The translations under genes and the position numbers were made by a program. Positions 12,508 to 35,165 of a stretch of DNA of 38,829 nt are shown piece by piece. Each line of letters begins with the position of its first letter. The stretch's first letter is position 1. The notes beneath the pieces were generated by a model that was not told the origin of the DNA, made no database searches, and saw only the letters and a list, made by a program, of their open reading frames with translations. Origin of the DNA: a virus; IMG/VR virus record IMGVR_UViG_3300028590_000049, positions 1-38,829 of that record; one strand, written 5' to 3'.

Positions 12508-13722
12508 ATGCCTGCACCTAGCAACAGCAACAGTCTGACTCTCGGAAGGCCCATCATTGATACGGTCCTTATTTCCGATCCGGGCTCGCGTATTCTGTGG
12601 GAACAGATGCACGGGACGTGGATGGGTCAGGGCTGCCCTTCTCCAGCGAAAGACGGCGACACAACCTACCAAGCCCTCTACGCTCGATACATCGCCGACG
12701 AGTGGTTCATCTACGCCGGCAAGCCAACTGACCCGATGAACCCCGATTTGGTCACGTCGCCGTTCTCGGGGTCTACGTCGATCGCTGTTCTCGACGAAGG
12801 TGTTGCGCTGGGGTCGTTTGATGAGATTGATTTTGTTGGCGCGGGAGTCGTTGCAACTGATGCTGGCGGCGGCAGAGTAACTGTCACCATCGCAGGCGGC
12901 GGCGGAGCGACGTACACGGCAGGCGACGGCATCGACATTGACGGTTCAAACGTCATCTCCGCCGAGCTTTCCACCAACGGCGGGCTGGAGTTCGACGGCA
13001 GCGGGATAGCAGTCAGCATCGGCGACGGCCTGGAAATGTCGGCGAACGATATCGTCGTCAAGCCCCACACCTACATCGACGTGACTGCAAGCGGCGTGGC
13101 GGTCGACTTTACGGAAGTCGCTCACTACAGCGGTTCCGACTATCAATTCCTCATCAACGATACCGGGACGTTCGAGTGGAACACCGGCGTCGGCGGGTCG
13201 GGCATTACGTTCAGCAACGGCGGCAACGAGTTTGAGATCATCGCCGACGTTCACAACGACAGCCACGTTGGCCTTGTCGACCCGACAACCGGCGAAGACT
13301 CTGTAGCGAACGACGCCCAGATTGGCATTCTCTGGCACGAGATTGAGGGATTCGACGACGGGCGCAACCAGCTTCACGGTCACGTCGCCGACGACCCGAC
13401 CAAGCCAAAGGTAACGTGCAAGACGACCGAGGATTGGCTGGAACTGCTGGAAAGCTACGACTCCTCTAAGAGCATGGTCGTCTACAACGATTCGACCAAT
13501 GCAGGAACGGAGGGTGACGAGCGGGTTCGGTGGGTTGAGTCTCCGCAGAAGGTCATTTGGGGCCTAGACCCAGATGGAGGGCACACGATCACGACGAGCG
13601 GCACGACGCTAACGCTGACGCTCAAGGTCACTAAGTACACGTTCGATGCAGTCAACTTTGTGAGCGCCGTCGATGCGGACGTGACGGTTACCTACGAAGG
13701 AACGGAGTGTGCAACACCATAA
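12508..13722 (+). CDS. Probable tail fibre / receptor-binding protein
   Basis: 404 residues; its ATG follows the previous stop without a gap. Residues 1-75 form a putative virion-attachment part. Residues 90-180 show fibre-type repeats seen in phage fibres and collar proteins: GAGVVATDAGGGRVTVTI, YTAGDGIDIDGSNVISAEL, GLEFDGSGIAVSIGDGLEMSANDIVV. Such GDGIxI..NVIS units form beta-helical or triple-stranded shafts. The C-terminal 200 residues are a beta-rich, Asp/Thr-rich tip ending in CATP. No collagen-like repeats or chaperone domain are seen. A role in host recognition is inferred from these repeats and from the location after the nozzle. Confidence 0.6.
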   Translation: MPAPSNSNSLTLGRPIIDTVLISDPGSRILWEQMHGTWMGQGCPSPAKDGDTTYQALYARYIADEWFIYAGKPTDPMNPDLVTSPFSGSTSIAVLDEGVALGSFDEIDFVGAGVVATDAGGGRVTVTIAGGGGATYTAGDGIDIDGSNVISAELSTNGGLEFDGSGIAVSIGDGLEMSANDIVVKPHTYIDVTASGVAVDFTEVAHYSGSDYQFLINDTGTFEWNTGVGGSGITFSNGGNEFEIIADVHNDSHVGLVDPTTGEDSVANDAQIGILWHEIEGFDDGRNQLHGHVADDPTKPKVTCKTTEDWLELLESYDSSKSMVVYNDSTNAGTEGDERVRWVESPQKVIWGLDPDGGHTITTSGTTLTLTLKVTKYTFDAVNFVSAVDADVTVTYEGTECATP

Positions 13723-33679: not shown

Positions 33680-34459
33680 ATGGCGAAGGAAAAGCTACCG
33701 GCGATTCACCTCTATCCAGGTGACTGGCTGCGCGATGCCATCAGCGGTTGCTCGCTAGCCGCTCAAGGGCTGTGGCTGCGGATGATGTTCGTCGCCCATG
33801 ACGCCCCTGTTTATGGTGAAATTTTTGCTTGCGATTTGCTTGCGTCAAAAGTGGGAATTGCGCGCAGATGCGGCTGTTCTGTCGAAGAATTTGAGTCGCT
33901 GTTTACTGAGCTTTTAGAGGCAGGAGTACCGCGAGTTGTTAATGGAATGATCGTCTCCAAGCGAATGATCGACGACGCAAAGCTAAGGGACATAAGGGCT
34001 AAGGCTGGTCGTAAGGGCGGCAAGCAAACAGGCAAGCAAAACTCAAGCAAACGCCAAGCAAACAGGCAAGCAAACATCAAGCAAAACACTGAAGATGAAA
34101 ATGAAAATGAAGATGTATCTGAGAATGAATCTTTAGATTCATTCGAGGAGTTCTGGAAGGCGTTTCCCTCTGGTCGCAAGAAATCCAAAGGGCGCGCGCG
34201 AGCGGCTTTCGAGAAGGCTGCCAAGAAGTGCGAGCCGACCGAGATCATCAATGCCGCTGCTGAGTACGCAGCCAGCCACGAGGGTCGTGGTGAGTTTGTG
34301 AAGATGCCTGAGACATGGCTTAACGGCGAGTGCTGGTTGGATGACCGCGCCGCATGGAATGCGAAAGGTGGAGAATATGGACGACGCAGTGATATTGGCC
34401 CAGGTCAACGACATGATCCAACAGCAGCGCAAGGTAGCCGCGGAGTCCTCGGCTTCTAG
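33680..34459 (+). CDS. Replication initiator-like protein (DUF1376-type) carrying the candidate origin
   Basis: 259 residues. The N-terminus AIHLYPGDWLRDAISGCSLAAQGLWLRMM (about 8-36) is the DUF1376-type start of phage replication proteins. Residues 114-140 are a low-complexity Lys/Gln/Asn linker, and 150-225 hold the usual C-terminal part: FEEFWKAFPSGRKKSKGRARAAFEKAAK, EYAASHEGRGEFVKMPETWLNGECWLDD. Such proteins sit before a helicase loader in many phages and are thought to bind the origin. The linker DNA carries six CAAGCAAA repeats, an AT-rich zone and a palindrome. The 3' end overlaps the loader start by 83 nt. Confidence 0.75.
   Translation: MAKEKLPAIHLYPGDWLRDAISGCSLAAQGLWLRMMFVAHDAPVYGEIFACDLLASKVGIARRCGCSVEEFESLFTELLEAGVPRVVNGMIVSKRMIDDAKLRDIRAKAGRKGGKQTGKQNSSKRQANRQANIKQNTEDENENEDVSENESLDSFEEFWKAFPSGRKKSKGRARAAFEKAAKKCEPTEIINAAAEYAASHEGRGEFVKMPETWLNGECWLDDRAAWNAKGGEYGRRSDIGPGQRHDPTAAQGSRGVLGF
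34021..34144 (+). other. Candidate replication origin: six iterons, AT-rich zone, palindrome
   Basis: CAAGCAAA at 34021, 34033, 34044, 34055, 34067 and 34078 (spacing 12, 11, 11, 12, 11). They fall in all three codon phases, so protein repetition does not explain them. Bases 34088-34144 have 16 G or C of 57 in an otherwise GC-rich phage. A perfect palindrome, GAATGAATCT (34123-34132) / AGATTCATTC (34135-34144), 2-nt spacer, closes the set. The layout parallels the lambda origin inside the O gene. Confidence 0.75.
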
Positions 34460-35165
34460 GTCTCCCAGCCCCGTTGCGTCGATCATGTCCCGCCTGGACA
34501 TCGAGCCGGTGTCGCCGGAAGTGCTGGCCGAACGCGAGGCTGCTGCCGCCTCCAAGGAAGCCAATCGCAAGGCCGCTGAGAATGCCCGGCGAGCGGAACT
34601 GTTGGCGCATCGCGTTGGCAAGCGATACGCCGGCGTTACGCTCGAAGGCTTCGAGGCTGGACACGACGCTCAGCGGGAAGTTTTGAAGCACGTCCGCGAC
34701 TACTCCGAGAACGTCGAGGAGCGGATTGCCACCGGCTCCGGCCTGTTCCTCATCGGCCCGCCCGGCACCGGCAAGGACCATCTGGCCATCGCCGTGCTGT
34801 TTGCAGCCGCCGCCAAAGGCGTCAATGTCCACTGGACGGACGGCATGGAGTTGTTCGCCAGCGCCCGCGACAACATCGACACAGCGAAGACGGAGGCGTC
34901 TTGGATGCACGCCTACACCAACCCGACCATGTTGGCCATCAGCGATCCCGTCCCGCCGCTTGGCTCCGTCAAGGAAGGTTTTCAGTTGGCAACGCTGTTC
35001 AGCATCATCGACCGGCGCTACCGCGACATGAAGCCAACGCTGCTAACTCTCAACGTCAACGACCGGGATGAGGCCGAGAAGCGGATGGCGCCCAACATCG
35101 TGGACCGACTAGCGCATGGTGCGCTGGTGCTGCGATGCGACTGGCCGAGCTACCGACTCAAGTGA
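34377..35165 (+). CDS. Helicase loader (DnaC/IstB-like AAA+ ATPase)
   Basis: 262 residues from ATG 34377 (GGTGGAG 34367-34373). Loaders place the replicative helicase on origin DNA. Walker A GPPGTGKD (127-134); Walker-B-like LAISD (186-190), in which the usual second acidic residue is Pro (SDP rather than DD/DE); sensor segment TLLTLNVN (222-229); late NIVDRLAHGALVLRCDW (240-256) with the arginine finger R244. The N-terminal 80 residues are charged and helical, a likely helicase contact. Starts inside the initiator gene, 83 nt before its stop. No replicative helicase gene is visible, so the host DnaB is probably used. Confidence 0.82.
   Translation: MDDAVILAQVNDMIQQQRKVAAESSASRSPSPVASIMSRLDIEPVSPEVLAEREAAAASKEANRKAAENARRAELLAHRVGKRYAGVTLEGFEAGHDAQREVLKHVRDYSENVEERIATGSGLFLIGPPGTGKDHLAIAVLFAAAAKGVNVHWTDGMELFASARDNIDTAKTEASWMHAYTNPTMLAISDPVPPLGSVKEGFQLATLFSIIDRRYRDMKPTLLTLNVNDRDEAEKRMAPNIVDRLAHGALVLRCDWPSYRLK

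Follow-up and report, generated by a model that had tools for sequence, protein, structure and literature searches.

We analysed the window, which is the whole stretch of 38,829 nucleotides, and conclude from its sequence that it very probably holds a replication origin within the coding region of its replication initiator gene, built of short iterons that are predicted to be bound by the product of the same gene. An origin at this place had been claimed in the earlier note, and the claim is supported by a repeat array that lies beside an unstable tract, by the family to which the initiator belongs and by a layout that is kept in relatives.

Iterons in the initiator gene

The array at 34021-34085 consists of six exact copies of CAAGCAAA at steps of 12, 11, 11, 12 and 11 bp, all as described earlier. 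The copies are read in three codon phases (2, 2, 1, 0, 0 and 2, giving KQ, KQ, SSK, QAN, QAN and KQ), again as described, and the 11-12 bp steps support the view of short iterons placed about one helical turn apart. An inverted pair of the same word at 33824-33842, for which TRF reports a period of 11 (33824-33844), had been overlooked and is added here. The gene and its iterons are:

33680-34459, plus strand: initiator gene, 259 amino acids (phrog_270 ‘replication initiation protein’, E 2.5e-23)
33824-33831, minus strand: inverted iteron CAAGCAAA, region I copy 1, exact match
33835-33842, minus strand: inverted iteron CAAGCAAA, region I copy 2, exact match, 11 bp from copy 1
34021-34028, plus strand: iteron 1 CAAGCAAA, exact match
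34033-34040, plus strand: iteron 2 CAAGCAAA, exact match
34044-34051, plus strand: iteron 3 CAAGCAAA, exact match
34055-34062, plus strand: iteron 4 CAAGCAAA, exact match
34067-34074, plus strand: iteron 5 CAAGCAAA, exact match
34078-34085, plus strand: iteron 6 CAAGCAAA, exact match; the six-copy array is absent from 5000 synonymous recodings

Of ten copies of the word in the contig (1.1 expected), eight fall inside the initiator gene. When 7-mer clusters with at least five copies in 120 bp were sought, the CAAGCAAA array was the sole one in the contig, with no second dense cluster by this measure. As a null model, synonymous codons were permuted within the gene, leaving the protein and the codon usage unchanged. 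Under this model the linker reached at most five exact copies, in 5 of 5000 permutations, and at no time six; about 1.3 exact words are expected from the composition of the linker alone. The count of eight in the whole gene compares with a null mean of 2.4 and a maximum of 5, and two exact inverted copies in nucleotides 100-220 of the gene were obtained in 0.2% of the 5000 permutations (P=0.002). The same recoding test applied to lambda O as a positive control recovered the known iterons (10-mer, P=0.005). The six-copy array was thus never reproduced by synonymous recoding, and the earlier view that the repeats appear to be selected at the level of DNA is supported.

Unstable tract and hairpin after the array

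The AT-rich run (16 G/C of 57 in 34086-34142) and the 10-bp palindrome (arms 34123-34132 and 34135-34144, both perfect) reported to follow the array were confirmed. The features of this segment are:

34083-34143: AT-rich tract, a presumed unwinding element that spans the codons for EDENENEDVSENESLDS; holds the 60 bp of lowest stability in the contig
34092-34113, minus strand: run of eight T, one at every third base, TnnT-like; equalled but not exceeded in length by others in the contig
34123-34144: inverted repeat with 10-bp perfect arms and a 2-nt loop; P=0.01 within the gene

The 60 bp beginning at 34083/34084 have a stability of -68.3, the lowest value in the 38.8-kb contig (next lowest -74.0; mean -90.6, s.d. 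4.4), and synonymous recoding seldom gives DNA this unstable (P=0.002). The hairpin arms at 34123-34144 are the longest in the contig among inverted repeats with a loop of at most 10. Three extremes of the contig thus coincide inside 34021-34144: its densest grouping of short words, its least stable 60-bp stretch and its longest inverted repeat with a short loop. This arrangement is not confined to the window: in 53 of 64 relatives, stability within the gene is lowest in a 60-bp stretch that begins at nucleotides 300-480, around and just behind the iterons.

The linker portion that follows the iterons (34086-34130) encodes EDENENED, which places a T at every third base of one strand. DnaD of B. 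subtilis recognises TnnT pairs in single-stranded DNA (PMC10201434). We treat the run as a lead and not as evidence, because the encoded amino acids already dictate it (P=1.0 under synonymous recoding). Short repeats after the iterons are also present in the linkers of L007-L086, as poly-Ser in most and as VSVSDS or NSNSNS in others, and these too put a T at each third position of one strand.

The initiator and its neighbours

The phrog_270 profile covers residues 23-235 of the initiator (P0001), which comprises a winged-helix N-domain (about residues 1-113), a disordered linker (about 114-147) and a helical C-domain (about 149-230). In a structure model built from 33 sequences, the pLDDT is below 50 at residues 118-147, the N-domain is helical and winged-helix-like and the C-domain is helical; the linker is of low complexity and modelled as disordered. 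The best Foldseek matches of the N-domain are winged-helix proteins (CRP, MarR and the DnaD NTD) at probabilities of more than 0.9 and yet with E values over 0.1, and a sequence search of solved structures gave no credible relative. Projected onto the protein, the direct array lies over the linker, while the other iterons lie over the loop between the helices of residues 26-40 and 57-63.

Among 33 family members, 19 match phrog_270 and 5 match phrog_678 (‘replication initiation O-like’). The Pfam family Phage_rep_O matched neither the initiator nor any of 39 family members, DUF1376/YdaU (PF07120) scored 14.1 bits, below the cut-off of 30.1, and no RepA_N domain was found by Pfam. No close relatives turned up in the genome-contig collection. 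The end of the initiator gene is overlapped by the following gene:

34341-35165, plus strand: DnaC-like helicase loader gene (phrog_50, E 3.4e-31; PF01695, E 1.6e-13)

Its first ATG is at 34341, the likelier start being the ATG at 34377, which is preceded by GGAG. In relatives, the next gene encodes a DnaB-type helicase in 15 of 38 cases and an IstB/DnaC-type loader in 6 (together 21 of 38).

The window comes from a poorly known phage lineage. Ten other open reading frames compared with PHROGs gave just one weak terminase match and two DNA methyltransferases, and the product of the large open reading frame at 12508-13722 has no relative among isolated phages.

Same geometry, different words in relatives

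We compared the initiator with relatives from 80 IMG/VR loci, which share about 29-51% identity in the best segment. The earlier note had looked to homologues for conservation of the array, and most of them (23-37% identity) retain the spacing, with a word that varies by lineage and with mixed codon phases; homologues that lack the words do not retain the Lys/Gln linker. The linkers of 65 homologous initiators show maxima in the distance between repeats at 11-12, 22-24 and 34-36 bp. Repeated 7-mers are found 16 times at 11 bp (1.2 expected), 49 times at 12 bp (14.1), 6 times at 22 bp (0.7), 8 times at 23 bp (0.85), 10 times at 34 bp (0.85) and 4 times at 35 bp (0.15), and lags of 10 or 13-17 bp are nearly absent. 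Because 11, 22, 23, 34 and 35 are not multiples of three, their enrichment does not stem from protein repeats.

The nearest relatives of the window in the tree (99/99 support) are L007, L014 and L032, which use three different words in mixed codon phases: GTCACC at nucleotides 372, 384, 396, 407, 418 and 429 in L007, TGTCAC at 358, 369 and 380 in L014, and ATTCCAC at 352, 363 and 374 in L032. A large sub-group of relatives has the words AAGGTTA/GGTTAACC. In L039, L059, L076 and L078, GC-rich words such as AAGGGGGG or AACCCCCC replace A-rich ones in the linker (at about nucleotides 350-450). Word class clusters on the tree, yet at least 15 changes are needed. Some relatives had no significant array by the single-word test. 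Isolated phages yielded no close relative of the L102 DNA.

A second cluster in the DNA encoding the DNA-binding domain

A single-gene statistic allowing one mismatch was dropped for its low power, and a held-out-word test was used instead, in which a word derived from the linker only is scored in the remaining regions of that gene. Over 54 genes, the linker-learned word was present 71 times in nucleotides 100-220 (26.2 expected, s.d. 3.9) and at expectation in the three other gene regions. Relatives are not statistically independent; thinning to one gene per 50%-identity group retained the signal (23 vs. 9.7, s.d. 2.6). One member, L004 (about 23% identity), has GCATATG at 135, 146 and 157 and then again at 314-336. 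In the set selected for a CAAGCAAA array, which includes some near-duplicate genes, members of this initiator family have 15 exact upstream copies against about 1.7 expected, often inverted and at 11-12-bp steps, and 18 other initiator types bearing the word do not show them. The second cluster is common in the family but not universal, and none is evident in L007, L014 and L032.

The word in other initiators

A blind query of IMG/VR with CAAGCAAA-N3/4-CAAGCAAA-N3/4-CAAGCAAA returned 84 stretches, of which 80 were analysed and 39 fall in the initiator family of the window. The remaining stretches with 11-bp steps are mostly in other initiators (DnaD-like, O-like, primosomal, DUF1376 and DUF6291); a few are in structural or other genes, chiefly in an in-frame 12+12 form. 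Matches of the triple word in the genome collection were set aside, 42 of 60 being in-frame 12+12 tandem repeats and 3 lying in the initiator family. In one locus (L150:144-1763) the CAAGCAAA array, with 11-bp steps, lies not in an initiator gene but close to where a DnaB-type helicase gene ends. The three phases of the word read KQ, SK and QAN/QAK, all of them hydrophilic and stop-free, and this may simply be why it recurs in linkers.

Proposed mechanism and alternatives

In the mechanism that we propose, the winged-helix N-domain of the 33680-34459 product would bind the CAAGCAAA iterons. The 11-12 bp spacing of the six direct copies would bring the protein molecules into line on nearly one face of the helix. 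The inverted pair 180 bp upstream may hold a second patch of protein, with the DNA between the two looped or bent. The resulting nucleoprotein complex would melt the adjoining AT-rich tract (34083-34143), where the C-domain and the DnaC-like loader would place the host helicase. The words could be kept in any codon phase because linker and loop tolerate almost any hydrophilic sequence.

Could the repeats instead be control sites of the initiator, serving autoregulation, copy control or handcuffing, while replication starts elsewhere? Plasmid iterons often have a regulatory role, and the inverted cluster at 33824-33842 could have this function. GC skew gives no origin signal here: the cumulative curve has no minimum at 34 kb, the skew being weak and the contig possibly incomplete. 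The array, however, borders directly on the contig's minimum of stability and on a hairpin, in an order shared by most relatives, and the contig offers no other iteron cluster of at least five copies; we consider this alternative unlikely. It is very unlikely that the words are bound by a host protein or another phage protein and that the initiator gene merely carries the site. Initiators of DnaD-like, O-like and DUF6291 type also carry CAAGCAAA with an 11-bp step, which would fit such a protein, and a single cognate initiator does not on its own account for a word common to several unrelated initiator types. Yet close relatives differ in their words, which a constant host factor would hardly permit, and the hydrophilic, stop-free reading in all phases is a simpler reason for a common word.

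Selection for a linker rich in K, Q, S, A and N, with the DNA repeats as a by-product, would agree with the disorder and low complexity of the linker, whose composition gives the 1.3 exact words mentioned above. Against it stand the failure of synonymous recoding to produce six copies, the strong enrichment of non-codon lags across the family and the occurrence of the words, partly inverted, in the region coding for a folded domain. Protein-level repetition is ruled out as the cause by the first two of these observations, and we regard this reading as extremely improbable.

Comparison with known origins

The intragenic iteron origin, our preferred explanation, has well-studied counterparts. 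In lambda ori and its variants in Stx phages, iterons lie in the middle of gene O beside an AT-rich zone, and a helicase-loader gene comes next (PMC7466680). The window likewise has iterons within the initiator coding sequence, an adjoining AT-rich zone that is predicted to melt, and a loader gene next. The annotated lambda iterons, four in number, measure about 18-19 bp, are imperfect inverted repeats in themselves and start 20-24 bp apart; the word of the window, in contrast, is 8 bp long and non-palindromic, is repeated every 11-12 bp and has an inverted pair upstream. The earlier label ‘lambda-O-like’ is therefore apt for the mechanism and not for the family, since there is no Pfam lambda-O match and there are no 18-bp iterons; membership of the lambda-O family was rejected on the negative Pfam scan.

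In SPP1, oriL lies in gene 38, which encodes the replisome organizer G38P, and combines direct repeats with an AT-rich unwinding element, the loader and helicase being gp39/gp40 (PMC6316719). We liken the two by description, and SPP1 has a second origin, oriR, elsewhere, whereas the contig lacks a second dense cluster. In the RepA_N plasmid pSK41, a winged-helix N-domain binds Rep boxes central in rep, over a dispensable linker, and the fold is DnaD-like (PMC5703833). In the window, the repeats are predicted binding sites and lie over a linker that is modelled as disordered and may be dispensable; pSK41 differs in that it belongs to a plasmid family and has a different N-domain and four Rep boxes, and no second upstream cluster is mentioned in its description.

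By analogy, we propose that the origin of the window works like lambda ori, SPP1 oriL and the pSK41 RepA_N origin. The phrase ‘new origin type’ used in the earlier note is too strong, as lambda, SPP1 and RepA_N plasmids already provide intragenic origins with iterons and an AT-rich tract; the system is a new and apparently widespread variant of these. On balance, we favour the view that it represents a large undescribed class of phage origins. In this class, the genes of winged-helix initiators would carry family-specific words of 6-8 bp along the linker, spaced by 11 or 12 bp without regard to codon phase. Often there would be a further cluster, frequently inverted, in the DNA that codes for the DNA-binding domain itself, and an unstable tract would follow. 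Words would turn over between close relatives, and some, such as CAAGCAAA, would re-arise in unrelated initiators, few words being permissive in all three frames.

If this is true, the origins of many uncultured phages, none of which is known so far, could be read from sequence by finding the initiator and then searching for 11/12-bp repeats while ignoring the codon frame. Because close relatives have different words at the same places, they would also form a natural data set on the joint change of an initiator and its DNA word, and the protein-coding linker would be an example of selection on DNA across three reading frames.

The Rac prophage carries an active origin, oriJ (PMC3945230); no mapping of oriJ to the DUF1376 gene ydaU was found in the papers examined. 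Nor was a pairing of DUF1376 with iterons found in the open-licence library that was searched. The gene after ydaU in Rac is ydaV, whose annotation reads putative ATP-binding protein. The linker of E. coli K-12 ydaU (L088:5120-5977) has three copies of TGTTCAAACA, at nucleotides 393 and 426 and reversed at 449 (P=0.005, synonymous recoding). Its word is another one and its spacing wider than in the window, and Rac ydaU is a possible entry point for experiments.
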